Virus record (IMG/VR): IMGVR_UViG_3300020179_001394
Coordinates: 1 to 20,286 of that record
From: a virus
Strand: one strand, 5' to 3'
Length of the DNA: 20,286 nt
A program made the position numbers and the translations under genes. The notes beneath the pieces are model-generated. The model did not search any database and was not told the DNA's origin. It saw only the letters and a program-made list of their open reading frames with translations. The first letter of the stretch is position 1. Every line of letters starts with the position of its first letter. Positions 410-20,286 of the stretch are shown one piece after another.

Positions 410-412
410 AGA

Positions 413-2322: not shown

Positions 2323-2324
2323 GG

Positions 2325-3439: not shown

Positions 3440-5068
3440 TTAACTCGTAATATCTAGTTCATCGAATTTTATAAGAGATTTTATTACCGGTAACATGACA
3501 GAAGATTTGTTTGTTATACTTAAATCGGGAGTATCGTTCCACAGCTTGTTTAATCTGATGTAACCAGAAGACATCAAAACTCTACCTACATCCAGATCTA
3601 CTTTAGTGTTGTTGGTGTTAAATATCTCGAGTGGTTGAATTTTACTTTCTGTTGTTGCAGGTAATCGAATTGTGTATGAAGGACCATTGATGGTTGCGGT
3701 AAGAATCGTGGAACCGTTTTCTGTTAACGCGTTTTCCAAATAAAATTCAGAGAATTTTTGATCCGGGGTAGGTGTGTTAATAACAGTCTTATCGTACTCA
3801 AATGAGGCTACCTCAGACGAAAATTCCTGTAAAACTAGTTCTTTTAACTCAGAAAAATTAAATTTTCTAGAAAATCTAAAAGAATCGAAATTGGAATATA
3901 AACTTTGAAATAATGATTGAATTTCTGTCTCTATTGCGTTCTTTCTACCATCATTTACTCCTGGACGATAAACAATTTTTGTATAGATCTTTACTGTGTA
4001 TTGTCTTGGAACAACATATTCTGGAATCAGTGCAAGTGGATTCTTTTTTCTTAAATAGTCTATTACTACACTAGAGTCTGGATTTGAAGTAATATTCTCG
4101 TATGACACAAATATTCTTCCTGGTTTAGGAGGATCTAATTCGTTTCCGCCGTATACTACAAATAAATCTTCATCTGTAAATTTATCGTCTCTTATTAGTA
4201 ATGCGGCATAATCTCCTTTAGTTACTGCTCGATCTTGACCTGAAAAAACACGCGGTGCAATGAATTTTACAACATCTAAATCTGGTTCATCGTTTCCGCC
4301 TGAAGATTGTTTAACTACAGACTGGGCACCAGTAAAACTAATTATTCCGTTTCCTTGACTACCACTAGATCGAAGATATCGAACTCGTACCGTATCAGAA
4401 TTTAAAATAGATTTTCCTAAATTATTTTCTTTTCCGAAATGTATCTCGAATAGATCTCCATTTCTTTCAATATAAAAAATAGTATCATCGTCATTTGGAA
4501 AATAATTAACATTCTTCCATGTCGTTGTCACTGGTGAAGATCCGGAGGATGTTACGGTAACATCAATAGTACTAATGTCTACATTGGAATGAGGTATAAT
4601 ATACTTTTGTTTAGTTAAATCTATTTCAGAAGAAATTATCTGATTAACAAGAATGCCTTCTGTTATGGTTACAGGACTGGCAGTTCCTCCTGCTTGTAAA
4701 TTATAAAAATTAAATACAGAACCGTTTGCTGCTATTCCTGTAAAAGACGTGTAGGCTAGAACCGACCCAGATACATTAATTTTTGCTTGTGCAGATTTCA
4801 ACCCAGGAACAGTATACCCCAATGGTTTAACCAAAGAAACAATAGATTTTGTTCTTTGTGCAGAATCCAAAAACACTTCTGCTGCCAACAGGTTAGAATA
4901 AAACGCATAATAATATGTGTTATAGGCCAACAAATCAATAATAGTTTGTATTGCAGATCCTTCAAAGTTGTAACCTACAAATGTGGTTTGATTTTTAAGA
5001 TAATCCGTGAGTGATGTTTTTATATCAGAAAAATCGATTTTTGTTAAATTAGGAGGAGTAGTTGTCAT
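3440..5068 (-). CDS. 6: Baseplate wedge protein, T4 gp6-like
   Basis: A 542-residue protein, shorter than T4 gp6 (660) but of the size seen in T4-like cyanophages. The first 100 residues carry the family signature: IDFSDIKTSLTDYLKNQ, then FEGSAIQTIIDLLAYNTYYY, LAAEVFLDSAQRTKSIVSL and PLGYTVPG. The middle has the usual beta region, with RNGDLFEIHFGKENNLGKSI and the APRVFSGQDRAVTKGDYAAL segment that the family shares with P2 gpJ. In T4 two gp6 copies per wedge clamp around gp7 and join neighbouring wedges into the baseplate ring; the same role is expected here. The start ATG lies four bases after the gp25-like stop, so the two are co-translated; no good Shine-Dalgarno sequence precedes it. The C-terminal 130 residues are less conserved. 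Confidence 0.93.
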   Translation of the reverse strand: MTTTPPNLTKIDFSDIKTSLTDYLKNQTTFVGYNFEGSAIQTIIDLLAYNTYYYAFYSNLLAAEVFLDSAQRTKSIVSLVKPLGYTVPGLKSAQAKINVSGSVLAYTSFTGIAANGSVFNFYNLQAGGTASPVTITEGILVNQIISSEIDLTKQKYIIPHSNVDISTIDVTVTSSGSSPVTTTWKNVNYFPNDDDTIFYIERNGDLFEIHFGKENNLGKSILNSDTVRVRYLRSSGSQGNGIISFTGAQSVVKQSSGGNDEPDLDVVKFIAPRVFSGQDRAVTKGDYAALLIRDDKFTDEDLFVVYGGNELDPPKPGRIFVSYENITSNPDSSVVIDYLRKKNPLALIPEYVVPRQYTVKIYTKIVYRPGVNDGRKNAIETEIQSLFQSLYSNFDSFRFSRKFNFSELKELVLQEFSSEVASFEYDKTVINTPTPDQKFSEFYLENALTENGSTILTATINGPSYTIRLPATTESKIQPLEIFNTNNTKVDLDVGRVLMSSGYIRLNKLWNDTPDLSITNKSSVMLPVIKSLIKFDELDITS

Positions 5069-5072
5069 TTTA

Positions 5073-5447
5073 TTATGGTATGATTGTTAACTGAATATTT
5101 TTCTGTGATTCTTTAGTTTTATCATTTTCTTTTACATCAAATACCAATTTATTGTTATTAAAAGAAACTGTCACATCTATAATTCTTGGTTCAAATTGTA
5201 AAATACTAGTTTTAAGAGACTGTAAAAACTCGTATTGTGTAATAGGATTATCAAACGTAAGAGATTCTATTTTTAAATTTGTTCCAAATTCTTGATTAAA
5301 TTGTCGTTCTCCTTTAATGGTTAACAGTATGTTTTTTAATGACTGTTTTGTGGCATTAACTCCAGTTACCATATTAAAATCGTTCGTATACGGATTTTTA
5401 GTCAAAAAGAAAGGAATATCTACGTAATTTACTTTGTCTAATAGCAT
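5073..5447 (-). CDS. 25: Baseplate wedge protein, T4 gp25-like
   Basis: A 124-residue protein against 132 in T4 gp25. It shows the family hallmarks in order: NPYTNDFNMVTGVNATKQSL, KNILLTIKGERQFNQEFGTN, a short variable part, and FEPRIIDVTVSFNNNKLVF. The GER..N.EFG motif and the EPRI strand are the core of the gp25/P2 gpW fold, which is related to lysozyme-like sheath initiators in name only and has no catalytic role in the baseplate. gp25 primes sheath assembly and forms the wedge core with gp6 and gp7. It lies 22 bases after the hub-like gene at 5470-6579 and directly before gp6, the order seen in T4-like cyanophages. The upstream bases lack an obvious ribosome-binding site. Confident assignment. 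Confidence 0.95.
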   Translation of the reverse strand: MLLDKVNYVDIPFFLTKNPYTNDFNMVTGVNATKQSLKNILLTIKGERQFNQEFGTNLKIESLTFDNPITQYEFLQSLKTSILQFEPRIIDVTVSFNNNKLVFDVKENDKTKESQKNIQLTIIP

Positions 5448-5469: not shown

Positions 5470-6579
5470 TTAGTCTATAGTTTGTTTAGGCAACGCAGTT
5501 CTGGCCAAAGTAAGATGCATAGCATAATAAGTTTCTGATATAAATTCGTAAAGAATTGAAGTTATAATCCACATCCCTGAATTTAAAGTATTTTTTATTC
5601 CTTCATTATAATGTTGAACTTCAATAATATCTCCTAGATTTATTGGTTCAGATCGATATCCATCCACTTTTATTTTGATTTGATTTAGTCCTAGATGAGA
5701 CATCAGGGCATATCTAAACATTGGAGTTGCCTCTGGTGTTTCCCAGAAAGTAGAGTTTATTTTAGTGTAGGCCAAATATTCTCCATAACTATTTCCTCGT
5801 TCTGGACAACCACAAGAAGATTCACTATACGGATCTTCGTAATTACAACCCAAATAATCTTTTCCTAAAACTGCCTCTATTCGCTTACATTCGTTTATTT
5901 TGTTGTATTCTTCGAATATTTCCAGATAAGTGGGTTCTCCATCGCCTGCAGTTCCTCCTGTTGCTCCTCCTGTTGCTCTTTCTGTTGCTCCTCCTCTTGC
6001 TCCTCCTCTTGCTCCTCCTGTTGCTCCTCCTGTTGCTCCTCCTGTCGCGGAATATAAGATATCTGGCCTCATATTTTTAGCAGGACAAAACATATACGGA
6101 TCTGTTGTGGGACCTCGTATTGTTTCTCCCATATTATGAGAACAACTGTCTAATCCTATTGTTGAACAATTTATTTTTTCTGTTGTATCCGCATTTGCGT
6201 AAACAATGAATTGAGCAGACCAATTAGAATCAAATAAATCGTAGTTTGGTTTATTGATCGGTGGTTCGATTATTCCGTAATCACTTTCTCCACTTATATC
6301 CCATTTCCATACATCTTTTGCCAATAATCCTGGACGATATATTGCACCGTCTCCTATTTGTACCGAATACGTAGTAGGAGAAGTAACTGTACTAAAATTG
6401 TTTAATTGATCAATATAGTCTGGATTATAAATGTTTAAATAATTCGGCGGTTGAACTACTAATCGTAATAAATTTTCAATTGTTAATTTGTTTGGATCCC
6501 ATGGACCTAATTCCGGACCAGTACACTTTGGTACTGGTTCAAATGGTCCTGTCGCGCAAATATCAAATGTTATCGACAT
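5470..6579 (-). CDS. Hub-like protein carrying a gp27 C-terminal-type domain
   Basis: A 369-residue protein. The last 70 residues read like the final tube domain of gp27 and related hub proteins: SHLGLNQIKIKVDGYRSEPI, then LGDIIEVQ, a short loop, SGMWIITSILYEFISETYY and AMHLTLARTAL. In T4 gp27 the corresponding region is 'ltPGvkIiF....yvdeViHel.....thlymft'. The N-terminal 170 residues are proline- and asparagine-rich and not recognised. A GGAT/GGAR linker (about residues 178-210, encoded by 12-base repeats) divides the two halves, and the second half has a CNYED...SCGCPERG cysteine cluster. The start ATG at 6579 is backed by AGGA nine bases upstream and follows the giant gene by 13 bases. 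It immediately precedes gp25, where the hub gene sits in T4-like marine phages. It lacks the first hub domains, which appear at the right end of the window, so I read it as one part of a divided hub. Coding is certain; the hub domain is a moderately confident inference. Confidence 0.55.
   Translation of the reverse strand: MSITFDICATGPFEPVPKCTGPELGPWDPNKLTIENLLRLVVQPPNYLNIYNPDYIDQLNNFSTVTSPTTYSVQIGDGAIYRPGLLAKDVWKWDISGESDYGIIEPPINKPNYDLFDSNWSAQFIVYANADTTEKINCSTIGLDSCSHNMGETIRGPTTDPYMFCPAKNMRPDILYSATGGATGGATGGARGGARGGATERATGGATGGTAGDGEPTYLEIFEEYNKINECKRIEAVLGKDYLGCNYEDPYSESSCGCPERGNSYGEYLAYTKINSTFWETPEATPMFRYALMSHLGLNQIKIKVDGYRSEPINLGDIIEVQHYNEGIKNTLNSGMWIITSILYEFISETYYAMHLTLARTALPKQTID
5951..6046 (-). 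repeat. 12-base tandem repeat encoding a Gly-Gly-Ala-Thr linker
   Basis: Eight near-identical 12-base units of the type GTTGCTCCTCCT (plus strand) run through the middle of the 369-residue hub-like gene. On the coding strand each unit gives GGAT, GGAR or a variant (one unit is ERAT). Small changes (gtt to ctt, cct to ttt) give Arg and Glu variants. The run is in frame, so unit gain or loss would only change linker length. Confidence 0.9.
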
Positions 6580-6588
6580 AATTTATAA

Positions 6589-6592
6589 TCCT
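6589..6592 (-). promoter_or_regulatory. Ribosome-binding site (AGGA) of the 369-residue hub-like gene
   Basis: The minus strand reads AAAGGATTATAAATTATG; AGGA at 6592-6589 lies nine bases before the ATG at 6579. This is one of the few clear Shine-Dalgarno sequences in the window and supports the chosen start. The motif begins directly after the TAA stop of the giant gene. Confidence 0.6.
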
Positions 6593-9500
6593 TTAGCCAG
6601 TTGAACCCACATAGGGATCTTTAATTCCATACGGATGTTGTCCCGTAAAACAGCTCCACGCAACATTCTTACAGTCATGGAACTCAGCAGAACATGTGCA
6701 TCCCGGGTGTTTATCACATATGTAGTAATTACACGGACAAACCCCGCAGTCCTGCGGAGTCGGGATCGGAGGACCCTGAATGAACTCGGGACACTCACAG
6801 CACTTCTCTTTTGCTTTGCAGGCACAATACTGATCCCACTGTTTGTCACAGCAATATTCATAGCCTGGAATCGCACAGACACTTGAGCAACATTTCCCGG
6901 GGTTCGTCTCGCAAACCCCGAAGGTACAGGTTTCCACATCGCAATTCAAACAAACATCTTTACACACTGCTGGATTACCATCTTCCTTCGTAACAGGACC
7001 ACTAGCTCCACAACATGGACTAAATCCATAGCCTGGATTGTACCATTCCACCTTTCCATGTGATAATAGTTCTTTATCGTATTCTCCATAAAATCCAGTA
7101 ATATCTGTACAAAATTTATCACAGTCCATTCCGTAAGTACCACACGGACATTTAAGATTACAGTTGTATTTATGCATACAAAGAGGAAGATCACATTTTT
7201 TACAATCTTCGCATGTCACTCCCTGGGGACAATCTTCTGAATTGTATAATAAATCCAATCCTCTAGTTTTTCCACCAGTCCATCCCCCAGGATTATATTG
7301 ATCTGCTGACCACAACAATGCATGATGGTTTCTACACTCACACGGACATTGTGGTTTACCACAATTACAAAGCCATTTTGCTAGAGTTCGGCATTCTTCA
7401 TCCCATGCCATAGTACAGCATCTTGGGTTGTAAGTACATACTGCCGCTTCGCAGTTTGGATCAGTAGTACATCCTATCGGAAAAACACACCGACAATACT
7501 GAAAAGTTGCTCCTGATACTCCTGCTGTTGGTTCGAAGTACCAAAAATCGGAGTTCGTGTGGTTACAATTACAGTCCGACGGTGACTTCCAAAAACAAGT
7601 ATCTATGTCACCGTTCTCGAGGAGGTAGGATGGACATACCCAACAATTATTTACTCCGCAGGGAACACCGTTTACATCCCGTCCCCGAGTATTGCCGCCG
7701 CAGTGACACATTTCGTCCCTATTAGCCCGGAAAGCCACAGTTGGTTGTATTTTTTCTAGTTTAGTATAATATACTCCTCCTTCCACTAGATTGAGCCCTA
7801 TTGATCCGTCCTTAGCGGTTGCACCTTCAAGGTAATATGAACTAAGAAAATCTGTACAACAATTTTGATAATATAAACCCTTTGTTGGATCAGTCTTCTG
7901 TATCTCTGTCAAAACTTGCTCTTTCACAATATCGCAAGGACGATCTTCTATTGCTAAATCTGTAAGTGACCTCCATATACCATCTTTGTAATAATAAGGT
8001 AACCGCTGACATGGTTGCCAGGTTTGTCCATCTTCTCCAAAAGGAATTACACCGTTTTCTATTTCAGTTATTCTGTCCCATAATCCAGGATGAGGCCAAC
8101 ATTGTCCAGCATACGAATTTTCTAAAGAGTTTACAGCCAAATAAGGTGTTTTGCCTGGGTTCTTCGGCATCGGGCCGGAATATGGGTTAAACTCCCATAA
8201 TATTTTATTGCCCTTTCCTTTTGGGCATGTTTGCGACGGGGGGCAAGTTTGAATTCCTTGAAACGTAATTGCGTTATTCCATATACGTATAGGAGTTCGA
8301 CAACATCCATCTTTACCTGCTCTATGGAAAGTTATACCATCAAAGTAATCGATTCCTGGCGAGACATTCGGGCCCAATGGCATCATGCCTACATACTCTG
8401 GTGCCCAGTATCCCAACGGTTCAAATCCTTTAATTTTTGTCAATATAGGGAACGAGTCACCCGATCCGACAGTATTAAAAGGTATTTGCCATGCACACCA
8501 ACTTTGATCTGAAATTCCTATATATGTACCATCCTGCAATGGCCCAACCTTGGTTTGGGTCTGAGCCGAGTCGCCGGGATGGAGTGTCACAATGGGCCCT
8601 GTACAATTTTCACACTGCTTTGGTGGATATAATGTTCCTGGTCCCGCAAAGATGTGCGAGCTGGTTGCGTACTTATCGTAAGCATTGCATTGGTAATTGT
8701 ATGCATTAATGTTAGTATGAAATTCTGAGCTCTCAATTCCGTCTTCTATAACTTTACCACATGAACCTTTAGGACAAGGAATATCCTCTCTGAACTTTCC
8801 ATGTAGTCCAGCTTCACAAAAGTGTTTAAAATCATTAAATGGTTGCCCTCCCCATGTTTCTAATAAATTCCAACGACATAAATGTTGTTGAGATTCGCCC
8901 TTCGATATCACCGGTTCTCCGTAACAAGTACAACAACCAGTTTCTCCACAACTACTTGTCCAGCCGGGTGGTTCTGGCCAACCTTCAATATTCCATCGAC
9001 TTTGAGTACATCCGCCCGGAATATTGGATGAATTAAAGCATGTTATAAACGCATATACCGAATCGTTGCTAGTAAATCCTTTCCACATATTATTTAATTG
9101 AGTGGCTAACCCACCATTTGTGCAATCATCTACAAAGACATGTTTGCCTGGATATCCTAATGTTATTCCCATAGGGACACATGAGTATTCTAAATCATCG
9201 CAGCAATTGGAGACAATAGAGTTACAGGTCTCGGCGGAATTAATTAGGCCATAATTTTTTCTCAGTATTGTGTGATTTATAATCTGTCGTTCTGGATCTC
9301 GTATATTATCAATACACACCATTCTGCCTCGCGGCGTGATCGGCGCCTTATCGGTTGCCCAATTTGGCCAGAGACTTTTGACGCCCAGAGCTTCGGAATT
9401 ACAGTACTTAAAGAATGTTTTTGCCCATAAATCAGGTTGCCACCACGGGGAATCACACATTGATATATTACGACCGACGCCGTTGAGGGCTCCTGCCTGC

Positions 9501-12500
9501 TCGACCTCTACTCCGAGACGGTAATTTATGTTCGGCACCGCGTAAACTGGCTGACTAGAATCTTCCGAGTACCAATAAGTTATAAATTGTTTTCCAGAAG
9601 TAATGAATTCTCCAGCATGATTTTCTTCCCAGTAACAACAAGATCCTCGTTTAGTCGACGAACATCCGCTTTGAGATTTGGGGGTAGGAAGAATTGGAGG
9701 CAAATTAATGAAAGCATTTGCTCTCCATGGCATTAAGGATCCATAATCTTTATATTTGGGATCACCTACTGTAGAGTTGCCCACGAAACAACAAGAATTT
9801 CCCAGGTGATCGTAACTGTAAGAAGCTCCTACTGAGTCAGTGTATAACTCATCAAAAGTTGGTCCAGCCCAGCCTGAACACGAAACTCCTTCTAAACATC
9901 TCGTTGAAACCGCCTCAAGGCACGCAACCAGTCCACTCATTTCACCGGTTTTATACCAAGGTCCTAGTTGTGGATCTTCCCAATCATATTGAGCACAATC
10001 ACATATACTCTCATTACCTTCCCCCTTCGCGCACCGCTGTCTCCAAAGGCAGGTACAGCACGTTTTCATCAGGCCGTCGCCTGGTACTTTCGCATCTAGA
10101 GGTTGACCATCTAAATATGGTTCGCCATTTATGCATTCTAGGGTACTCGGAGCATCAACTGAACAAAGGTCATTAAAGTAGTACTCAGTCATACTATCAC
10201 AGCACGGTTCATTCCATATGTGAGTGCAGCCGCTCGGTATCACAGTACATGATTCAATCTCACCTTTACTCAATTTTTCCAGGCAACCCTCTGGATCAGG
10301 GTTATAAATAAAATTATTAAAATGTCCAGATATAACTTGAGGTCCAGGGCCTCCGGATTGACAAAGATTATCGCCAAGTGGTAAAATCCATTGTGCTGTT
10401 CCATCAGCCGGCCGAACTCCCTGACAGTAATCCGTCATGGGTCCGAAATATGGGTTAAAATAAGGATCTCCGCCTCCCTTCGGCACCCGCGGTTGGAATT
10501 TGGGAAGCGAGGGACTATATGGATTCATTTTTGGTGCTGGAATTTCTGAACAAACATACTTGCTGTCGACAGGGTGCTGCGATCTATCTTCAATTTCTAC
10601 GAAACTAAATGGAACTTTTGTATTATCCCATGCCCATTTTCTTCCAGCAAATCTTCCGAAACAAATGTTTGAAGTCAGAGACCCCTCATTTACGGATCCA
10701 GGATAAGCATTCCACTTAGTGGGGTGCCGTGAGGGTGTCGGGTAACTAACGATATTTTTTGGAATCCATGGCCAATAATGGATGCCATCGGGGGTTGGTA
10801 TTCCATGGGGTTCAGTTTGTATTGCCCCAACATATCTTCCGATAAAAGAACAAGAATTTCCAAGATAAGCGCTCACTGCTCCTGTTTGCCACTCACAGGA
10901 CGACGAGGGTGTGGGACCCGTATTTTTTTGAATGCCAGACATTTGATTCGACACAGCGTGTCCCATACCACTAACATTCCAATAAGGTTGAGGGCCTGCA
11001 GATGGATCTCCACCTACACCGTGGCCTATATGATACATTACATCAAATTTGTCTACTATGGTATCGTGGGGGGGTGGACTCCATTCTCTTCCCACTTTGT
11101 GTAACCATGAAGTAGCGGGTTGTCTTTTACTCCAATGCACAAGATCACCTTCATAAGGCCATGGTGATAGAGTCTTAAACGGCTTAGGAGACCATCCCCA
11201 ATTAGGAAGTATGGCACGAGAACGAAAATATACGCTGTGTACTAGTCTCCAATACGCTCTTCTTTTAGTTAGATTTAACAGTTCAATCCCGAAATTGGGT
11301 TCAGGCAAATTATAAATGTCACGGTTTACTTGAAGAGTATGGATTCCTTCGTCTAGATAACAATCTGGCCAAGAAGCTCCTGGTTTCGGGCTGGCCATTC
11401 TTGCCAATGCAGGAGCTCTTTTGTCGAATTTAGCAGTAAATGGGTCATATCCATTGCCCCCTTGGGTTGATGCCGCGGCTCTTATTTCCCATTCGTCTCC
11501 TGGTAGACGTGCAGGACCAACACATTTAATTTTACCAGGATTATTATATTTATCCCTAAGAGCAAATAGTTCTGGCCAATTCAGGGGAGTTATCGAGGGC
11601 TCGCCCTCTTCATTCAGGCCAACTAAAGTTTGAATATCATCAAATATTTCTTGACGCCAATCTTTTAATTTTAAGCGATCTAAAAATGCACCAGGATTTG
11701 GTAATCTTTGTTGTACTTTATCATTAGTTTGCTTCCACGCAGCATCAGTATGAGCCTGCCAAACAGCTTCCCTGCTATCTTGCGGCATAAGTTGTTGTTT
11801 ATTATAACCATATTGATATCCTAGGTTCCAATTATCATATTCACAAAGATCTTGTATTATATCTTCTCTGGATGAGGTGCTAAATTCAAAAGAAAATAAA
11901 TGAACAGCATCTGCAATTTGGTGAAAAAAGAAAGGCATACTGCGGTCCTTTAAAAAATCAGATGGAAAACTTCCGTCATCCAAACAGTCCATTGAACCTT
12001 TAACATAAGTAAATTCTTGAGAAACAAATGTAAAGAAATATTTGAAAAGATTATGCGGCCAATTTCCTATGCCGATTATTTCGTTTGTGTGGGGCAAAAC
12101 TATAGGATATGACTTGTATTCTGTTTCTCTTGCAATTCGTTTTGCTGCAGAAAACTTTTCACCACATACAACTTTAACATATTTTTTGTTTGCTGTTCCT
12201 CCACTTACTCCAGAAAAATTGAATCTATTGTTTTCAGAATTGCCCCAACAATAAATTGAACCATCTATTGAAATAGCACAAGTGTGATATGCACCACACG
12301 CAATAGACTTTATTGGAATACAGTCCGGTCCAGGACAAGTTAATTCAGGTGGCGGAGCAGACTGTCCAAAATCATTTTCTCCGGATTGTCCAGTGAGACC
12401 AGCTCCCCAACAAACAACAGTTTTGTCTGTTTTTACTCCACATGAATGAAATTTTCCTGCTGCAATGTCTATAAATTGTATGTTGGTTAACTCATTAGGA

Positions 12501-15500
12501 ATCTTAGATTGTCCTTTATCGTAAGTTCCTCCTGCACCCCAAGCATAAAGTTTATTGTCGCTTTTTATTGCGAGACTATGATAATATCCAGCAGCAACCT
12601 TTTTTGCCATCCCAACTTGGTCCCGGGAGAAGTTGGTTTGTTGTGCATAAGAAGCTCCCCAACAAAATACGTTAGACCCTCCTTTCTTTGAATAATTGTT
12701 TATCGCAACATTGTGATCTATTCCACAGGCAATTTCTTTCCAAGATTGAACACCTTCACATAAATTTAAAACAGCCCTTTGATGAAGCTCATACCTTTTG
12801 GGATGACCTTCATACCCCTTAGCTGTAAACCAGCCATGGTTTGCCTCTTGTCTTGATAATACATGACTAACTTCTGACTCAACAAATGTTCCTGTTCCTC
12901 CGAATACATTTGAGTTTTTGGATCCACCAAAAGGAATAAAGGCATTTTCGTCTTCCAGCATATGACCATGACATGTGATAATATCTGTTCGATAGCATTC
13001 CCCAAAACATGTTGGCAATCGAGTTTCCATTGATGGACTACTGCTCCAAAAACCATTGTCGTCTATAGCTGACACTAGACCTTCTCTCGTGTCGAGAGGG
13101 CAACACGGTTGCTTTCCCCATGTGGTTGGGCATCCCGACTCGTCATCTGTTGTGTAAAAAGGATATCTACAATCTAAACATTTCTCAGCACAGTTAAAAG
13201 ATTCAACATCTTGTTGGACGGATGGGCATGGCGGATCTGCGTCGGGTTGGGTTTCACCCCCTTTGTGTGGTATAGAGACATCCTCCTCTGCGTTTGAACA
13301 TTTATTAATCTCCCGTATATCTTTCGATTCCCAATCCTTTGTGCAATCACCATTCCAATTAAATGGAGGGAGTACGTCAGGCCAAAATAAGGCATTACTA
13401 ATTTTTTCTGCTCCATAAAAATTTATTGTTGAGTCTTCTCGATCATATAATACAGTTTCTGTTCTTGGACATATTTTCATAAGCGATCCAGTTGGACCAG
13501 TTTCTTCCCACTGTTCATGGTTATAAGAAGCTTCACATGATGGTGGCCACATTCCAAATCCAGTGTATGGTACGTCCCCTCGTCGACTGCCATGGCATCC
13601 ATTGAATGCCGGCAAGCGCAAATTGCGGCAATCCGTAAGATAATGTTCCGGTAGATGCAAATGGAACCCACTTACTAGGCCGGGTCCGCCCCAACCACTG
13701 CCGTCGCCATCGCCGTCGCCACCGCCGCCACCGCCGTCGCCACCGCCGTCGCCACCGCCACCGCCGCCACCGCCACCGCCGCCACCGCCACCGCCGCCAC
13801 CGCCACCGCCGGGACCGCCGCTCACGGAGAGCGGCGGAGCCCAATCCCCTTTGCACGGCTGGTCTTGGGGGGAACTCTGAAGTGTATATTTTGAATATAT
13901 ACCTGCTGAAGTTTCTGTTGCACCATTTTTTCGTATAATAATACATCTATCTCTGCCCGGTTCTCCTCCTACACTTAATTTTTCGGCACGAGACCACTTA
14001 GGCACTGTTGTCAAAGGAAGTGGAAATAATCGGGGAGTACCCATATCACTGAGTAAAGCTTCAGAAGACGGGCCCGTCTGCATGCGCATGTTAAACCTAT
14101 CTCCTGCCCATGGGCCATAGGCCCAATGGACATGTGCCATTTCTCCGTTGCCCACACCCCAGTTATAACGAAGTATATTATAATGGGGAGGATTTTCAAA
14201 TTCTGGAACTGGTCTAAAAAGTCCTCTAAGTGTACTGATTCCTTTACCTTCCATCCAGTTATACGGGAAAGTAACTAAAACAGGATGACCGTATCCTGCT
14301 AAATTTATATACGATCCCGAGGCTGTCCCCCCGTATTCGGTTCCACCTTCAGAAGTTTCTTTGTAATACCAGTATTCTCTTCCATCATATCTTGCAAGAG
14401 CTGCTAACATATCAGGACCCGCTGCAATATCTGCACAACCCTCATCGATTGATGCTGTGTGTGAGGTGTCGCCAATAGTCCCAATAATGTCTATACCTGT
14501 ATACTCAGGAATATTTCCTTCAGTATCCCCCTGAAATTCACGACTCGCAATAACTATTGGCTTTTTGTCATTAAATTGAAGTATTTCCCATATATCCGGA
14601 TTTAAGTGTTCTGATACTCTTTCTTGGTATGGGGTAAGACCACACCCTAAGATAATATTTTGGGTTAAATCTACCGATTTGTCTTCCGGACAACCAACAC
14701 CCTTTGATCTTAGTTGCATATATTCTTTTGTGGTTGCGGGAGGATATTTTGGACTATATGACCCTGCTCTATAAGGCATTCCCATGCCCAACCACGTTTC
14801 CGACATATATGTTCCTACTTCATTTTCTCCAAGCCATGCTTGATTGTTTGCAGGAACCCTAAAAAGTCTACAACACCAGTCCATGACGCTGATGTACCCT
14901 TCGCACTCTTCCCCTAAGGCTAGCCAGGAACACATTTGGTTGGGGTAATAACCCGTGTCATTCATAGACGCCATAACTGGAGTACTCCATGCACCATCTG
15001 GCCATGTGTCGCCCGGCGCCCATTCCGCATGGAACCCAAGGTCGTGGGTCCGTATACTCTTATATCCCGACCAATGAAATGCAAAACGAGGATGCTGGTA
15101 CGAGAATTCACATGGGGGCTGCGTGCCGTACGAGGGAGCTCTGCTGCCAGGTATACATCCACATACATTTGCTGCAGGAAAATATTGATCTTGTTGTCCC
15201 AAACATCTATTTTTAGTCCACCATATTAAATTACACGCCCGCTCTTGTACTACTTGCTGCCCGGGGACGAATTCTCCTTCATATAGCTCGGTGAATCCGT
15301 CTCCTTGAGTGTTGTCAATACCTTTACTTAACGAATATCCAAATACTATAGGACGACTAGCTGGTCGTACATCTTCAATGCCATTTGCCTGCATTTGAAC
15401 AGCAAGAATATCATGCAATACAGGTTTTATTCCAGCATGACAATCTGTTATGAGTCCATTTTGACTCATAATGGTATCTATGTTCTCAAAACATCCCTGG

Positions 15501-15565
15501 CCAGGTGGCGGCGGTGGCGGCGGCGGCAGAGTTGGACCATCTTCACAACAAGATAAACATGACAT
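6593..15565 (-). CDS. Giant cysteine-rich multidomain virion protein with RCC1-like repeats
   Basis: A single uninterrupted 2990-residue frame, 44% of the window. No whole-protein family is recognised. Visible parts, in order: MSCLSCCEDG followed by eight prolines (about 13-20); a Trp/Gly/Cys-rich body; a run of more than 20 glycines, then Gly/Asp (about 584-625); RCC1/BLIP-II-type beta-propeller repeats (about 940-1140) with units such as VAAGYYHSLAIKSDNKLYAWG-like strands; a long Cys/Trp/Pro-rich middle; and a C-terminal disulfide-type region with 40 cysteines in the last 260 residues. No transmembrane helix, signal peptide or catalytic motif is evident. It lies three bases after the 1403-residue hub-like gene and 13 bases before the gene with the hub C-terminal-type domain, so it is almost certainly a virion component at or near the tail tip. 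Adhesion or a protective or puncturing appendage is inference. The start has no Shine-Dalgarno (AACATAAATTATG) and probably relies on coupling. Confidence 0.6.
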   Translation of the reverse strand: MSCLSCCEDGPTLPPPPPPPPGQGCFENIDTIMSQNGLITDCHAGIKPVLHDILAVQMQANGIEDVRPASRPIVFGYSLSKGIDNTQGDGFTELYEGEFVPGQQVVQERACNLIWWTKNRCLGQQDQYFPAANVCGCIPGSRAPSYGTQPPCEFSYQHPRFAFHWSGYKSIRTHDLGFHAEWAPGDTWPDGAWSTPVMASMNDTGYYPNQMCSWLALGEECEGYISVMDWCCRLFRVPANNQAWLGENEVGTYMSETWLGMGMPYRAGSYSPKYPPATTKEYMQLRSKGVGCPEDKSVDLTQNIILGCGLTPYQERVSEHLNPDIWEILQFNDKKPIVIASREFQGDTEGNIPEYTGIDIIGTIGDTSHTASIDEGCADIAAGPDMLAALARYDGREYWYYKETSEGGTEYGGTASGSYINLAGYGHPVLVTFPYNWMEGKGISTLRGLFRPVPEFENPPHYNILRYNWGVGNGEMAHVHWAYGPWAGDRFNMRMQTGPSSEALLSDMGTPRLFPLPLTTVPKWSRAEKLSVGGEPGRDRCIIIRKNGATETSAGIYSKYTLQSSPQDQPCKGDWAPPLSVSGGPGGGGGGGGGGGGGGGGGGGGDGGGDGGGGGGDGDGDGSGWGGPGLVSGFHLHLPEHYLTDCRNLRLPAFNGCHGSRRGDVPYTGFGMWPPSCEASYNHEQWEETGPTGSLMKICPRTETVLYDREDSTINFYGAEKISNALFWPDVLPPFNWNGDCTKDWESKDIREINKCSNAEEDVSIPHKGGETQPDADPPCPSVQQDVESFNCAEKCLDCRYPFYTTDDESGCPTTWGKQPCCPLDTREGLVSAIDDNGFWSSSPSMETRLPTCFGECYRTDIITCHGHMLEDENAFIPFGGSKNSNVFGGTGTFVESEVSHVLSRQEANHGWFTAKGYEGHPKRYELHQRAVLNLCEGVQSWKEIACGIDHNVAINNYSKKGGSNVFCWGASYAQQTNFSRDQVGMAKKVAAGYYHSLAIKSDNKLYAWGAGGTYDKGQSKIPNELTNIQFIDIAAGKFHSCGVKTDKTVVCWGAGLTGQSGENDFGQSAPPPELTCPGPDCIPIKSIACGAYHTCAISIDGSIYCWGNSENNRFNFSGVSGGTANKKYVKVVCGEKFSAAKRIARETEYKSYPIVLPHTNEIIGIGNWPHNLFKYFFTFVSQEFTYVKGSMDCLDDGSFPSDFLKDRSMPFFFHQIADAVHLFSFEFSTSSREDIIQDLCEYDNWNLGYQYGYNKQQLMPQDSREAVWQAHTDAAWKQTNDKVQQRLPNPGAFLDRLKLKDWRQEIFDDIQTLVGLNEEGEPSITPLNWPELFALRDKYNNPGKIKCVGPARLPGDEWEIRAAASTQGGNGYDPFTAKFDKRAPALARMASPKPGASWPDCYLDEGIHTLQVNRDIYNLPEPNFGIELLNLTKRRAYWRLVHSVYFRSRAILPNWGWSPKPFKTLSPWPYEGDLVHWSKRQPATSWLHKVGREWSPPPHDTIVDKFDVMYHIGHGVGGDPSAGPQPYWNVSGMGHAVSNQMSGIQKNTGPTPSSSCEWQTGAVSAYLGNSCSFIGRYVGAIQTEPHGIPTPDGIHYWPWIPKNIVSYPTPSRHPTKWNAYPGSVNEGSLTSNICFGRFAGRKWAWDNTKVPFSFVEIEDRSQHPVDSKYVCSEIPAPKMNPYSPSLPKFQPRVPKGGGDPYFNPYFGPMTDYCQGVRPADGTAQWILPLGDNLCQSGGPGPQVISGHFNNFIYNPDPEGCLEKLSKGEIESCTVIPSGCTHIWNEPCCDSMTEYYFNDLCSVDAPSTLECINGEPYLDGQPLDAKVPGDGLMKTCCTCLWRQRCAKGEGNESICDCAQYDWEDPQLGPWYKTGEMSGLVACLEAVSTRCLEGVSCSGWAGPTFDELYTDSVGASYSYDHLGNSCCFVGNSTVGDPKYKDYGSLMPWRANAFINLPPILPTPKSQSGCSSTKRGSCCYWEENHAGEFITSGKQFITYWYSEDSSQPVYAVPNINYRLGVEVEQAGALNGVGRNISMCDSPWWQPDLWAKTFFKYCNSEALGVKSLWPNWATDKAPITPRGRMVCIDNIRDPERQIINHTILRKNYGLINSAETCNSIVSNCCDDLEYSCVPMGITLGYPGKHVFVDDCTNGGLATQLNNMWKGFTSNDSVYAFITCFNSSNIPGGCTQSRWNIEGWPEPPGWTSSCGETGCCTCYGEPVISKGESQQHLCRWNLLETWGGQPFNDFKHFCEAGLHGKFREDIPCPKGSCGKVIEDGIESSEFHTNINAYNYQCNAYDKYATSSHIFAGPGTLYPPKQCENCTGPIVTLHPGDSAQTQTKVGPLQDGTYIGISDQSWCAWQIPFNTVGSGDSFPILTKIKGFEPLGYWAPEYVGMMPLGPNVSPGIDYFDGITFHRAGKDGCCRTPIRIWNNAITFQGIQTCPPSQTCPKGKGNKILWEFNPYSGPMPKNPGKTPYLAVNSLENSYAGQCWPHPGLWDRITEIENGVIPFGEDGQTWQPCQRLPYYYKDGIWRSLTDLAIEDRPCDIVKEQVLTEIQKTDPTKGLYYQNCCTDFLSSYYLEGATAKDGSIGLNLVEGGVYYTKLEKIQPTVAFRANRDEMCHCGGNTRGRDVNGVPCGVNNCWVCPSYLLENGDIDTCFWKSPSDCNCNHTNSDFWYFEPTAGVSGATFQYCRCVFPIGCTTDPNCEAAVCTYNPRCCTMAWDEECRTLAKWLCNCGKPQCPCECRNHHALLWSADQYNPGGWTGGKTRGLDLLYNSEDCPQGVTCEDCKKCDLPLCMHKYNCNLKCPCGTYGMDCDKFCTDITGFYGEYDKELLSHGKVEWYNPGYGFSPCCGASGPVTKEDGNPAVCKDVCLNCDVETCTFGVCETNPGKCCSSVCAIPGYEYCCDKQWDQYCACKAKEKCCECPEFIQGPPIPTPQDCGVCPCNYYICDKHPGCTCSAEFHDCKNVAWSCFTGQHPYGIKDPYVGSTG
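6785..6945 (-). other. C-terminal cysteine module of the giant protein (CC-WD-C type)
   Basis: This part encodes CDVETCTFGVC, then CCSSVC and YEYCCDKQWDQYCACKAKEK, ending in CCECP. The CC..xWD..C...A core matches the pattern of a second module about 600 bases upstream in the gene (7355-7475). Regular paired cysteines suggest a small disulfide-stabilised domain or a metal site. Domain identity is inferred from spacing only. Confidence 0.5.
7355..7475 (-). other. Cysteine module of the giant protein resembling bacterial 'CC-WD-C' surface repeats
   Basis: The coding strand gives CTTDPNCEAAVC followed by YNPRCCTMAWDEECRTLAKW and LCNCGKPQC (about residues 2695-2735 of the giant protein). The spacing C-x5-C-x3-VC-x3-NPxCC-x3-WD-x2-C-x3-A-x3-C is, from memory, very like a repeated element of predicted exported proteins in planctomycetes and some myxobacteria. 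This is recall rather than a search, so confidence is moderate. Confidence 0.5.
12130..12745 (-). other. RCC1/BLIP-II-like beta-propeller repeats in the giant protein
   Basis: Five units of about 40-55 residues are visible: WKEIACGIDHNVAI; KKVAAGYYHSLAIKSDNKLY followed by AWG; FIDIAAGKFHSCGVKTDKTV followed by VCWG; IKSIACGAYHTCAISIDGSI followed by YCWG; and YVKVVCGEKFSAA. The 'v..iaaG..Hs.ai..dg.vy.WG' pattern is the RCC1 signature. Four complete strands sets plus a partial fifth would make an incomplete propeller unless flanking divergent units close it. RCC1-like propellers bind proteins or glycans in other settings; the role here is unknown. This stretch is visibly more AT-rich than the rest of the gene. 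Confidence 0.85.
13690..13813 (-). repeat. GC-rich low-complexity tract encoding poly-Gly/Asp
   Basis: An almost pure run of three-base units (ccg, cca, cgt on the plus strand) encodes more than 20 consecutive glycines followed by GGGD/GDGD stretches. It is about 125 bases of very high GC in an AT-rich genome. In the protein it would be a long flexible or polyglycine-helix linker between two Trp/Cys-rich parts. An arginine/tryptophan-rich frame on the same strand here is a shadow. Confidence 0.92.
15503..15526 (-). repeat. Octaproline tract near the N terminus of the giant protein
   Basis: Eight consecutive proline codons (CCG, CCA, CCT) give residues 14-21 or thereabouts, directly after MSCLSCCEDGPTL. 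It would form a rigid polyproline stretch that sets the cysteine-rich N-terminal tip apart from the body. Confidence 0.9.
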
Positions 15566-15568
15566 AAT

Positions 15569-18500
15569 TTATGTTACTTTATTAAAATCTGTATTATTTA
15601 GTCTCTGAAATATTTGACCAATATCCCAACTGTCTGGGTTATACATGAGATATCCGTCAAAATCGTATTGACTTTGACGATGAACATATCCGATACGATA
15701 AAAATCAGTAATTTCCATATCATTATGTATCTTGTTTAGATCATCGATAACTTTAAATAATTTTGCTGGAACAAATAAATTCAACGGTATTGTACAAGTC
15801 CACCAAGATCTATGAGGTCTCATTTTTCTGTGAGAATTTAATAAATATCCGCTTCCCATATAAGAAGCCCTTCGTTCTGGATCAATATATGACGACAATT
15901 TCCAAGGATGATCGTCTTTGTTCCATTGTTCCATATAGTCTACTTCATCTAAACCACGATAATCGTTTTCTGGCATTGTGGCGTAGTATACTTCTTTTGT
16001 TTCAAACATAAATTCTGGCCATAAATCCATTCCATTATCTGATACATTAGTCTGGAAATAGGGCATTATATTGCTTCCTGTCCAATCTGGATGATCTTTT
16101 CTGTCGTATTCTTCCAGTTTCATTTTCTTGACAGCAACATCAAATCCGTATGGATCCATTCCGATTACTGCAACATTGTTTCTGACAGATTGTCTTCCGA
16201 CAGGACCAGAAGTAAGAGAAACAAGATACGGAAGAAAATACTCGCAACCAGCGTCTCGAACAAACCCGTTTGGAAAGTCTGCAATTCTATCTAAACCTAT
16301 TGGATCTTCAAATTCGATTCGAACATAAGAACTCAATTCTTCTCGTTTCAAATTAGGAGGTCTAGAGTTTGCTGTGAGTCCTGTTTGACCGGTAGTTATT
16401 CCGTAGATAAAGGTGTAATCGGATTGAGTTTGTCCTGGTACCGACAAGGTTGCCCCGCCACTGATTCCTTTCCAAATAACACCTGCTACAGTTTGATCAA
16501 ATTTTTGACTAGACAATTCTGATTCGGGTCCAGGAGCTCCCAGAGATTGTAATGTAGACGAAACTTCGGTTACAGGACTGTTTGAGTATCTATTATGATA
16601 TCCCGACATTCCTTTATATTGTTGATCGTAATACGGATGTTCTTTCGGAGGATCGATTTGACAAATACCCTTATCGTTTATTCCCTGATTTGTTATCTGA
16701 TTACCTGGTCCTGGATTTAAGTTTCCAAACGCGATATTGTAAACCCAATTTCCTAAAGAACTTCCTGTTATTGATTTAGATTTTGCTAGAATCTCGTATC
16801 TACTGCCTCTAATATTTTTTCTAGTAACAGACTTTACACCGTATAAACTTAAAGGTTGATTTAATGGAGTAAGTCTTTTTCTTCCTTCTCCTGTTCTCCA
16901 TCCAAAGGCAGATCCTCCCTGATGACTCATCAATCCCCCACCAGTGTCTCCAACAGAAAATATACTACTGCCGGGAGTTTTAGAATAAAAATAAGCGGGT
17001 CTGTCTAACCATTCCTCTACTTGTACTCCGATATTTAAAAGATGATCATGTAAACCCTGATCATGTCTTCTTAAAATATAATTTTCTGCCCTGAGTATAT
17101 TAAATTCTCGTATTGCATTTTGCTTTAGAGCTATTAATACATTAGGATTAAGGCAATATTCATTATAGGATATTCTTCTAGTTTCTAAAATATCTCCAGA
17201 GGATCCAGAGGCTTCGGTACTTTCTCTTCTAGATTCACAATCTGGTAATTCGCCAGATCCTCCACTTACACCAAAACAAGCAGAAGGAATTGCGCCGTAT
17301 ATTTCCTTGGTTCCCCATCTATCGGTGAAATTATAAAACGGATTCAGTATGATATCAGCGGAGGCTCCAGAGGCTCCTATTGGAAGAATATTTTCTAAAT
17401 TTTGTATTTTTTTAACATATTTTCTGTTGTCTTTACCTCGAACATAAACATTTTCCGAACACTCTCTACACCATTGAGGTAAATATTGAAATTTAGGTAT
17501 ATACGAGTGTTCTCCTACAACTGGACCTGTGCATCCTGTGTATTTTTCTCCTCCTCCGTAAGTGTTTCCAAAATTAATTGTTCGTAGAGTACAATTCTGG
17601 GGTAATTGAATATACGGAATTCTTTTGCTTAAACCAGGAACTGTTAAGTACGGTTGTTTTTGTGTATTGTTGAGTTTATCAATTTCCCACTGAGCATCAG
17701 CAGAAGCACCAGAAGCACCAGAAGCACCAGAAGCACCACTCGGTCCGGAAATACCAGATTGCCATAAATGATATGTTGGAATATTAGGTCCGGCATATTT
17801 TGGAGAATATCCACAAGGTATACCTACTCCATAATATCCGTCATCAAAATTTACCGACTCTGTGCAATATGAAATTCCTGCCGTTATTGCTGTCATTTCT
17901 TGAAATGTACTAGTAAAGGTTTTTTCGAAATAACTCTTTACACTTGTGTTCAAGAATCCGGTTTCAATAGAATAATAATTGTTAATTGTTTTAATTATAA
18001 ATTCTCTGTTTATGGACTCGTTACATTCTGCACAATTAACTGTATTGTCGTTTATAAACGATATGCCAGAAATAATCCATCCGTCTACTTTTTCTAAAAA
18101 GTCTCGAATAAATCTGAGTCTATTTATATTGTTTGTAATTGCCTCTGAGTATTGCCGTTTGACCAATATGTTATTGTAATCTGGTTGACCACCAGACATT
18201 CCTACGCCGACTATAATATTTTCTGCGTCTTGTTTAAAATTATAAAATTGTCTTATAGTTTGATTGTACGGACTTGCAGTGAATCCAAGATCTCTAGAGA
18301 TATACAATCCGTGTTTACTAACAGAGGCTCCTGTTACCGCAATTACTCCCATATTAGAAGCCCCTGAAGCCCCTGAAGCCCCTGAAGCCCCTGAAGCCCC
18401 TGAAGCCCCTGAAGCTCCACTAACTCCTTGAAATACAGAAGTATAGTTTATAGCATCTGTAAACGAGCCAGCTGCGTAAACTTTATATCCTTCTCCTGTT

Positions 18501-19780
18501 ACTTTTTTATTATTTCTTTTTAAAATAGTATTAAATAAACCGTTTTGTCCGTATATACTTTCAAAAGTTGGACCACTACCTAATTCCAATGCCTCTTTGA
18601 ATATAACTCGATCTTTTTCACTTCCTATTGCGTCCTTTAAACAACAAATTTTACATCTATAAGCTTCCCATTTTCTTTTTAAATTCATCAATTCATTGAA
18701 TTTTTTTCTGCTTTTCTGTACAGGAACTTTAATTCCAGTTATTATTTTGTAAAAAGTTCTAAAGTCCATGGGACTCAAATCAAATTGAGATTGCCACATT
18801 CCATCCGAATCAAACGAATAACTATACGAACCTATACTTTCCCACCATGGAGAATTTTTTACATTAAATGTATTTTTAGCAAAATATCCGTATCTACTGT
18901 TATTGGCATCTAAAAATTCAATATCAGTGTGAGAATATTTTGCTGTATTTCCACTTCCACCAATCAATATAACTGGAACTCCTGCAACTAGTGTTATAGT
19001 CCCTGTAGGTCCAGCTGGTCCACTTTGATAGATATTAAGTTTTGTTCCATCTGGTGGACATTGAGGTATGAAATCAAAACATTTGTCGTAATCGTACTTG
19101 ATTTCAGTTTGAGATTTTTTCTTTTTCAGACTAGATCTGGTGTCTACAAACGAATAGTACGGATCAGCAAAATCTGGTTCTATTCGTTTATATGATGCCT
19201 TAAATAATTTACTAAAATTTTGAGCAACTGCATCATGATGACTTTTAATGGTAGACAACTGATGTATTTTGTTTTCGAACATAGGATTTTCATCATTAAT
19301 AATGAATTTTCCTTTGGATTCTCCTTGATACATTTTAGATAAACTTCGAAAATGCCATAGTCCTCTGTGATCTGACCATAAACAAAAATTTGCTTCAGGA
19401 AATTCAGAAGCTAATTCGGTATCTCGAACAGCATAGGAGGTAACATAACCTAATAATTCCAACAACTTCATTTGTGCAATAGGTTTCTTGTAGGGCCAAG
19501 AGTAATTATTGTACTTTACCAAAACTCCATTTTTAGTATTTTCTATATCTTCTTGTCTGTAATTGAATTCGTTTTTATCAAAGATATAGTGAATAAAACT
19601 GGGTATTATAGGAATATCAATTCCAATAGATCCCGTATTTCCAGTATTTCCGGTATTTCCAGTAGCTTCGGTTGTTCCAGTAGCTCCGGTAATTCCACAT
19701 GCTGGGTTATATGTTGAATCGATTAAGCGGTTGGCATGGGATCCAATATACAGATCATATTCTTCTTGGTCTTCTTCCAT
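15569..19780 (-). CDS. Large baseplate-hub-like protein (gp27-type segment) with collagen-like inserts
   Basis: I take ATG at 19780-19778 as the start: it shares one base with the upstream stop (TAATG) and has AAGG eight bases before it. The frame's first ATG at 19840 would add 20 Arg-rich residues that are shadow of the upstream gene. This gives 1403 residues. Around residues 65-190 the protein shows hub features: FIHYIFDKNEF, a helix with MKLLELLGYVTSYA, then PEANFCLWSDHRGLWHFRSL and KGKFIINDENPMFENKIHQL. T4 gp27 has the equivalent 'dkFvFvWQDimGvnm' and 'yPMIvgeps' elements in that order. After that come Gly-Ala-Ser runs (about 454-475 and 680-693), CxxC pairs (CKICC, CAEC, CREC) and a 700-residue tail with no recognised family. 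T4 gp27 has only 391 residues. The gene is tightly linked to both neighbours. The hub segment is moderately supported; the function of the long body is unknown. Confidence 0.55.
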   Translation of the reverse strand: MEEDQEEYDLYIGSHANRLIDSTYNPACGITGATGTTEATGNTGNTGNTGSIGIDIPIIPSFIHYIFDKNEFNYRQEDIENTKNGVLVKYNNYSWPYKKPIAQMKLLELLGYVTSYAVRDTELASEFPEANFCLWSDHRGLWHFRSLSKMYQGESKGKFIINDENPMFENKIHQLSTIKSHHDAVAQNFSKLFKASYKRIEPDFADPYYSFVDTRSSLKKKKSQTEIKYDYDKCFDFIPQCPPDGTKLNIYQSGPAGPTGTITLVAGVPVILIGGSGNTAKYSHTDIEFLDANNSRYGYFAKNTFNVKNSPWWESIGSYSYSFDSDGMWQSQFDLSPMDFRTFYKIITGIKVPVQKSRKKFNELMNLKRKWEAYRCKICCLKDAIGSEKDRVIFKEALELGSGPTFESIYGQNGLFNTILKRNNKKVTGEGYKVYAAGSFTDAINYTSVFQGVSGASGASGASGASGASGASGASNMGVIAVTGASVSKHGLYISRDLGFTASPYNQTIRQFYNFKQDAENIIVGVGMSGGQPDYNNILVKRQYSEAITNNINRLRFIRDFLEKVDGWIISGISFINDNTVNCAECNESINREFIIKTINNYYSIETGFLNTSVKSYFEKTFTSTFQEMTAITAGISYCTESVNFDDGYYGVGIPCGYSPKYAGPNIPTYHLWQSGISGPSGASGASGASGASADAQWEIDKLNNTQKQPYLTVPGLSKRIPYIQLPQNCTLRTINFGNTYGGGEKYTGCTGPVVGEHSYIPKFQYLPQWCRECSENVYVRGKDNRKYVKKIQNLENILPIGASGASADIILNPFYNFTDRWGTKEIYGAIPSACFGVSGGSGELPDCESRRESTEASGSSGDILETRRISYNEYCLNPNVLIALKQNAIREFNILRAENYILRRHDQGLHDHLLNIGVQVEEWLDRPAYFYSKTPGSSIFSVGDTGGGLMSHQGGSAFGWRTGEGRKRLTPLNQPLSLYGVKSVTRKNIRGSRYEILAKSKSITGSSLGNWVYNIAFGNLNPGPGNQITNQGINDKGICQIDPPKEHPYYDQQYKGMSGYHNRYSNSPVTEVSSTLQSLGAPGPESELSSQKFDQTVAGVIWKGISGGATLSVPGQTQSDYTFIYGITTGQTGLTANSRPPNLKREELSSYVRIEFEDPIGLDRIADFPNGFVRDAGCEYFLPYLVSLTSGPVGRQSVRNNVAVIGMDPYGFDVAVKKMKLEEYDRKDHPDWTGSNIMPYFQTNVSDNGMDLWPEFMFETKEVYYATMPENDYRGLDEVDYMEQWNKDDHPWKLSSYIDPERRASYMGSGYLLNSHRKMRPHRSWWTCTIPLNLFVPAKLFKVIDDLNKIHNDMEITDFYRIGYVHRQSQYDFDGYLMYNPDSWDIGQIFQRLNNTDFNKVT
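17701..17736 (-). repeat. 9-base tandem repeat encoding Gly-Ala-Ser (4 units)
   Basis: Four perfect copies of CAGAAGCAC (plus strand) encode GASGASGASGAS in the 1403-residue hub-like protein, after a related GPS unit. Gly-X-Y triplets of this kind form collagen-like triple helices or flexible linkers in trimeric phage proteins. The codons differ from those of the repeat at 18357-18419, so the two tracts expanded separately. Confidence 0.92.
18357..18419 (-). repeat. 9-base tandem repeat encoding Gly-Ala-Ser (7 units)
   Basis: Six perfect copies of GAAGCCCCT (plus strand) and one variant (GAAGCTCCA) encode seven GAS triplets in the hub-like protein. Perfect identity at DNA level points to recent expansion by slippage, and copy number may vary between relatives. 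Confidence 0.93.
19632..19694 (-). repeat. Collagen-like Gly-Asn/Ala-Thr triplets near the N terminus of the hub-like protein
   Basis: Seven imperfect 9-base units of the type CCAGTATTT or CCAGTAGCT (plus strand) encode GATGTTEATGNTGNTGNTG (about residues 30-48). It lies between the start of the protein and its gp27-like segment, so it acts as a linker between the product's first 28 residues and the hub domain. Confidence 0.85.
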
Positions 19781-19782
19781 TA
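19778..19782 (-). promoter_or_regulatory. TAATG stop-start overlap (translational coupling)
   Basis: On the minus strand the stop of the first hub-like gene (TAA, 19782-19780) shares its last base with the ATG (19780-19778) of the 1403-residue gene. AAGG lies eight bases before the ATG. Such overlaps let ribosomes that finish the first frame restart on the second, which would keep the two products in proportion. Confidence 0.75.
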
Positions 19783-20286
19783 GAATGGCCTTGAATATCC
19801 TTGACCAGCATTTGGACCGTCTCCGCCATCTGCAATCCATCCAATAAAGTCTTTAATATCTGATTCATTTTCTGGTATTTCTATTGCTGGTTTCAAAGTA
19901 GCTTCGTACAAATCCGAATTCATAAATTCCAATACAAACACATTGATTTTTTGAAATCCGTCCATTGGTCCACTCAAAGAAGCTTCATCTGTTACAACAG
20001 TTTTGTTTAAAATGATTCCTTGAAATACCGTGAAATCAAAATTACCACCATCTGTAGGATGAACTCTGGATTTAAATCCAATTTGCAAATAGTCTAACGG
20101 TTTAATTTTATCAAATAAAAAAACTCCATCTGTTTTACTTTGAGTATTAAGACAATTCAATGTTCCTGAAACTGTTGGACTCATCAAAGATTCAACAATA
20201 CTTAAACCTTTTAGTAGAGTTTGACTCTTTGCGTGATTGCCGTCGGCTGGAAATAAACTTACAATCACTTCTCCCTGTTTATTAGT
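19780..20286 (-). CDS. Baseplate hub protein, gp27 first-domain-like (5' end beyond right edge)
   Basis: The frame is open to the right edge. The first possible start inside the window is GTG at 20268-20266, giving 162 residues, but six more codons (TNKQGE) precede it in frame, and the only Shine-Dalgarno-like bases (GGGAGAA) abut the GTG with no spacing, so I think the true start lies outside. The product is beta-rich: VSLFPADGNHAKSQTLLKGL, SIVESLMSPTVSGTLNCLNT, FLFDKIKPLDYLQIGFKSR, FTVFQGIILNKTVV and KINVFVLEFMNSDLYE. T4 gp27 domain 1 has the same run: 'a..ittLtmrdSLyg..eg.lqfyds', 'mdGneiiqIsv', 'riyGckhfsvs' and 'iaIelgtihsieN'. It ends with the Gly-rich GWIADGGDGPNAGQGYSRPF. Alone it lacks the rest of a hub; the next gene and the one at 5470-6579 carry the missing kinds of segment. 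Confidence 0.6.
   Translation of the reverse strand, partial: TNKQGEVIVSLFPADGNHAKSQTLLKGLSIVESLMSPTVSGTLNCLNTQSKTDGVFLFDKIKPLDYLQIGFKSRVHPTDGGNFDFTVFQGIILNKTVVTDEASLSGPMDGFQKINVFVLEFMNSDLYEATLKPAIEIPENESDIKDFIGWIADGGDGPNAGQGYSRPF

Follow-up and report, generated by a model that had tools for sequence, protein, structure and literature searches.

In the virus record IMGVR_UViG_3300020179_001394, three genes are homologous to successive parts of the single open reading frame (ORF) that encodes a gp27-fold baseplate hub in related viruses. In contractile tails, the hub serves as symmetry adaptor and core, and it belongs to the minimal set of components common to phages, tailocins and type VI secretion. 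The record, analysed over its entire 20,286 bases (hereafter the window), is a genome fragment of 20 kb from an uncultured phage of the T4 superfamily. It contains a single minus-strand gene block, which along transcription reads domain 1 (D1) gene, 1403-aa gene, 2990-aa gene, 369-aa gene, gp25 and gp6 (Table 1). Very probably, a single hub gene has here been broken into three, with an inserted module and with a Cys-rich gene in the break, and the pieces would co-assemble.

The first-pass annotation had described elements of gp27 that follow one another in the T4 order in separate frames. The ORFs, their borders and the positions of the NFCLWSD, NPMF, LGDIIEV and SGMWIITSI elements are as it described: the 1403-aa product has NFCLWSDHRG at residue 131 and NPMF at ~165, and the 369-aa product has LGDIIEV at 315 and SGMWIITSI at 334. 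Its figure of more than 4000 extra residues between the hub parts is borne out as well (1170 + 2990 + 284 = 4444). We find three chains and 4444 extra residues rather than a single chain of ~360-450 residues; one-chain length does not define the fold, and the departure makes the split hub a variant. The start assigned to the first piece had to be corrected. A 162-residue product beginning at a GTG had been proposed, while the open frame in the window is 168 aa, and in the L037 contig, 99% identical to the window, the gene starts 26 codons upstream of it. The GTG is thus not the real start.

Table 1 Features of the split-hub locus in the window, in order of transcription
Feature	Position	Strand	Evidence or remark
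Hub piece 1, gp27 domain 1 (first ring barrel)	19780..20286	-	truncated by contig end; 194 aa full-length in L037
TAATG stop/start overlap, pieces 1/2	19778..19782	-	conserved in L037 and L045
Hub piece 2, whole gene, 1403 aa	15569..19780	-	ORF list; dN/dS 0.11 vs L045
Piece 2 core, residues ~62-233: gp27 domain 2 + first half of domain 3	19082..19597	-	fold, HMM from fused relatives only
Giant Cys-rich protein gene, 2990 aa	6593..15565	-	fills slot between hub pieces 2 and 3; dN/dS 0.33 vs L045
RCC1-like repeat region, residues ~930-1190 of giant protein	11996..12778	-	RCC1_2 E 6.6e-27
Hub piece 3, whole gene, 369 aa	5470..6579	-	ORF list; dN/dS 0.10 vs L045
Piece 3 core, residues 285-366: second half of gp27 domain 3 + domain 4	5482..5727	-	fold, HMM from fused relatives only
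gp25-like baseplate wedge gene	5073..5447	-	Pfam + PHROGs; constant downstream neighbour of hub
gp6-like baseplate wedge gene	3440..5068	-	Pfam + PHROGs; tree marker

Scans with gp6 and a conserved part of the insertion yielded over 100 further virus loci, with 148 relatives in the last scan. In most relatives one frame of 1535-2179 aa encodes the counterparts of the 168-aa, 1403-aa and 369-aa products in succession; it is located after gp53 and, wherever that end is present, before gp25 and gp6. Relatives with the parts fused, which the first-pass annotation had proposed to look for, therefore exist in numbers: at the border of pieces 2 and 3, 84 loci are fused, 18 are split and 8 were scored neither, some of the loci being two fetches of one contig. 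L015, L016 and L017 show an intermediate state, with pieces 1 and 2 in one chain and piece 3 apart. HMMs built from the fused relatives only match pieces 2 and 3 and no other window ORF (D2 5e-28, I1 3e-20 and I2 5e-83 in piece 2; C1 4e-45 and D3b 8e-8 in piece 3). D1 was missed among the window ORFs by an HMM built in this way; by BLAST, the D1 piece matches the N-termini of the L016, L017 and L012 products with E 3e-14 to 9e-15. An apparent split in L070 was rejected owing to a run of N in the contig. Of the two related contigs L062 and L063, one has a whole hub ORF (1913 aa) and the other a broken one (1726 + 186 aa) with the same flanking coordinates, the difference being due to a misassembly or to a recent break.

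The family to which these ORFs belong is phrog_350, the PHROG 'tail protein' hub of cyanophages, Caulobacter phage Cr30 and Vibrio and Rhizobium phages. The fused L035 product matches it in three colinear stretches with E 2e-25, matches of fused relatives also being found at 6e-13, and the split orthologues match piece by piece with E 2e-6 to 1e-12. The window pieces themselves are tied to the hub family via orthology: the D1 piece reaches E 0.05 only, and piece 3 gives no direct match where its orthologues reach E 2e-6. PF09097 (T4 gp27 domain 1) has no match in the window, but a control was without match too, so that this absence carries no weight. Compared directly with T4 gp27, the sequences show no significant similarity; an hhalign comparison with the single T4 gp27 sequence, a mere hint at the W.D..G element (E 0.022, probability 2%), was discarded. 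Sequence searches of the PDB with the N-part profile and a fused hub retrieved no hub, no match among cultured phages was returned by tblastn for either the 1403-aa product or a fused hub, and a scan of bacterial genomes with the insertion profile found no relative.

Structure searches covered D1/D2 and the piece 3 C-terminus. An AlphaFold model was obtained for residues 1-1195 of the L017 product (pieces 1+2) from 55 sequences; its mean pLDDT is 58.5, with values >70 in most ten-residue blocks of residues 20-275. The top structural match is T4 gp27, with Z 10.8 spanning 204-205 residues both for 2z6b_D (model 13-439 to gp27 6-281) and for 1k28_D (model 13-290 to gp27 6-237). It is followed by the hubs of P1, Mu and contractile injection systems and by VgrG, and every other match with Z of at least 8 is to a hub or baseplate-centre chain. 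Foldseek agrees, with E from 2e-5 to 1.5e-4 (4.5e-5 among them), and in a viral structure library the top matches are 400-460-aa proteins of T4-type phages, some of them hubs. For the C-terminal end of piece 3, which is the confidently modelled part of the 369-aa product, the fold search returned the R2 pyocin hub (Z 5.1), P1 (5.0), Mu gp44 (4.6) and T4 gp27 (4.0), the piece 3 core aligning to T4 gp27 289-365, Mu gp44 257-337 and R2 pyocin hub 253-325. Hubs rank first and second here, with Z of only 4-5 and unrelated folds at similar Z. Taken by itself this match is weak; it fits in with the sequence evidence and with the fused relatives. Hub-domain matches, the absence of which would have counted against the earlier proposal, were thus obtained by profile and fold searches for all parts, mostly via orthologues. 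Jointly, the matches cover gp27 6-281 and 289-365, with an interruption at ~282-288. As we take domain 3 of gp27 to be 207-239 and 307-343, following its published limits, this domain is therefore built from two genes here.

The additional length has two sources: an ancestral insertion of ~1200 residues at gp27 ~282-288, and a later break with the Cys-rich gene. An alignment of the fused relatives shows 1210-1485 residues already present between the hub halves, with insertion blocks I1, I2 and C1 conserved across the family and three long helices predicted. In the window, the 1403-aa product beyond residue ~233 constitutes the first arm of the insertion (I1 and I2), with predicted long helices and collagen-like repeats (runs of GASGAS/GNTGNT, 15569-19780), and residues ~91-284 of the 369-aa product form the return arm (C1). 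In the fused relative L035, a Cys-rich and collagen-like stretch lies instead within the hub chain itself. The split-clade break falls inside the ~1200-residue module, between I2 and C1. The proposal of a hub both split and expanded is supported with one adjustment: the ~1200-residue expansion is older than the split and present in single-chain relatives, and the Cys-rich gene is what the split added. In a gp6 tree with five cultured phages as the outgroup, the split loci form a single clade (95/95) next to fused loci (90/68). Each of the cultured hubs examined is encoded by one uninterrupted gene, and one chain is therefore taken as the older state. By parsimony, the break between pieces 2 and 3 apparently arose once.

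Within the split clade, this break holds at least one gene at every locus with both sides present. The slot genes encode 171 aa in L012, 610 in L017, 734 in L008, 855 in L015, 908+272 in L016, ~2480 in L045 and 2990 in the window. The first slot genes all start with a Cys cluster (MSCLSCC, MYCGCC, MAFCCC), and those of the window, L003, L015 and L017 contain a VC..CC...W[DN]..C motif that occurs nowhere else in the loci. Besides the Cys-rich start and the partly shared motif, phmmer comparison of slot genes across subclades revealed no common ancestry. No hub homology was found for the 2990-aa product, so that of the four adjacent genes over which the first-pass annotation had spread the hub, three have the hub fold and this one falls away; it may be a tail-tip structure. 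The product also contains a long Gly run. A nucleotidyltransferase-like signature (GS/GG ... D[IV]D[IV], e.g. VGSVARFF...RDIDIL) is seen in hub-slot genes at L016:7635-8453, L015:7544-8491 and L008:1940-2707, with weak Pfam support (PF14907 E 0.11, L008 only); an enzyme would be an unexpected occupant of a baseplate slot. The split might be without structural consequence if a protease cut the long fused hub at the same places during assembly, the virion then containing an identical set of chains in both cases. T4 gp5 is cleaved, providing a known case, and the breaks lie in an inter-domain linker and in the insertion and not in conserved core segments. Against it stands that the break always holds a new gene, and we consider this explanation unlikely.

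All pieces are under purifying selection. In comparison with L045, the dN/dS of the hub pieces is 0.10-0.18, the upper value being that of the D1 piece, against 0.33 for the faster-evolving Cys-rich insert. These values bear on whether the pieces are remnants or have been repurposed, another complete hub being encoded elsewhere in the genome. As both the window and the split-clade contigs are fragmentary (up to 50 kb), there is room for such a gene, but strong purifying selection on all three pieces argues against it, as does their location in the gp53-gp25 interval, which is the hub position in relatives. Furthermore, no second phrog_350 match was detected in ten relatives of 40-157 kb or in a 50-kb split-clade contig, and the second complete hub named beforehand as the finding that would overturn the proposal was absent from these ten contigs and from the split-clade contigs of up to 50 kb. 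Accordingly, we regard a second hub as very unlikely. The ten hub-bearing contigs of 40-157 kb, possibly incomplete (L084, L062, L118, L070 and six others), likewise gave no match to a gp5-type OB domain, Phage_base_V, phrog_430 or PAAR; this lack of a gp5-type spike partner in them counts against the hub interpretation.

The surroundings of the split hub are those of a baseplate locus. In the L037 contig, gp48-like and gp53-like genes precede the D1 gene, such that gp48, gp53, hub, gp25 and gp6 are found together, and gp23-type capsid genes in five related contigs confirm membership of the T4 superfamily. Gene products downstream of gp6 (window 2-3437) also look baseplate-related: weak matches link a 370-aa product to PF23786 baseplate wedge and a 209-aa product to DUF4815/phrog_358, the last gene being truncated by the contig end. 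A gap of ~0.8-0.9 kb separates gp25 and gp6 in L066, L070 and L072, the two genes being adjacent elsewhere; in L070/L123 a 305-aa gene occupies it.

Gene borders are the same in the window, L037 and L045, the last being 71% identical in the D1 piece, and the arrangement is therefore not a sequencing slip. The TAATG overlap also recurs in both, so that the D1/D2 border is not a sequencing error. Piece 1 is encoded apart from the rest of the hub in the window, L037, L045, L012 and L053, and the position of the D1/D2 break differs among the window, L012 and L053. On the hub tree no fewer than three changes are needed to explain the break, among them the contig-edge entry L093, whose 'split' label was rejected for that reason; the D1/D2 linker break probably arose more than once. 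That the pieces are joined at translation into one giant chain, by a D1/D2 frameshift and stop read-through, is most unlikely: pieces 1 and 2 do overlap, and in the window only one TAA codon separates piece 2 from the giant gene, which continues in the same frame, but inspection of the D1/D2 overlap revealed no slippery heptamer, the corresponding genes of L012 are 13 nt apart with separate ATG, the in-frame relation of piece 2 and insert is lost in L045 and L017, and the insert and piece 3 are out of frame with 13 nt between them.

We thus favour a hub of separate chains derived from one gene. A phrog_350/gp27-type hub would have gained the ~1200-residue module between the halves of its second ring barrel, and in one lineage the gene would have broken within this module, with a Cys-rich gene coming to occupy the break. 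The pieces would be translated separately, pieces 1 and 2 through TAATG coupling and the others from their own starts. By analogy with the co-assembling chains of lambda gpL+gpJ and RcGTA g13+g15, the chains could then assemble 3:3:3 into one trimeric hub beneath the tube. Chain 1 would supply domain 1, chain 2 domain 2 and half of domain 3, and the strands of chain 3 would complete domain 3, with the two insertion arms projecting from the ring. Most likely, the fast-evolving Cys-rich protein docks at the arm tip as an exchangeable surface or receptor-facing part. On balance, we lean towards a ring barrel completed in trans by two chains (the 1403-aa and 369-aa products), the break acting as a permanent exchange slot for Cys-rich tip genes of 171-2990 residues while the ring is left untouched.

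Element order is the same in T4 gp27 (1K28, 2Z6B), which in contrast is one 391-aa chain without the ~1200-residue module and with sequence similarity below significance. The cultured phrog_350 members examined are also single chains of 440-450 aa without insertion (Cr30 446 aa, S-H38 448 aa). Hubs split over two genes are known: in lambda (gpL/gpJ) and RcGTA (g13/g15) hub domain I is a separate gene with other genes between, and the two chains assemble 3:3 into one ring (PMC10721106, PMC7296036). The window resembles these systems in encoding hub domain I apart, but they have two chains and siphophage-like tails, whereas the hub described here belongs to a T4-type myophage, comprises three chains and has a break that separates the two halves of the second barrel. 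In gpL/g13 an Fe-S domain with four Cys follows hub domain I; this domain is absent from the full-length D1 product, with 2 Cys in 194 aa. A gp27-type hub much enlarged by extra, exchangeable domains is also seen in gp147 of phage 0305phi8-36, a 'hyperplastic' gp27 homologue (PMC2147016), although its extra domains flank the core in one chain, which is neither split nor interrupted inside the core. Literature searches on gene fission in baseplate hubs returned nothing closer than lambda/RcGTA, and we found no split hub described for this T4-type myophage lineage, for three chains, or for a break inside a ring barrel beside a variable gene slot.

In this uncultured T4-type branch, the hub took up a ring-domain module of ~1200 residues and then became three genes plus a variable gene, and the fused and split forms, existing side by side, make the order of events readable. 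The split hub provides a test case for whether a ring barrel can assemble from two chains, and its slot a natural place to seek swappable tail-tip parts. Furthermore, three otherwise unannotated gene families gain a likely function.
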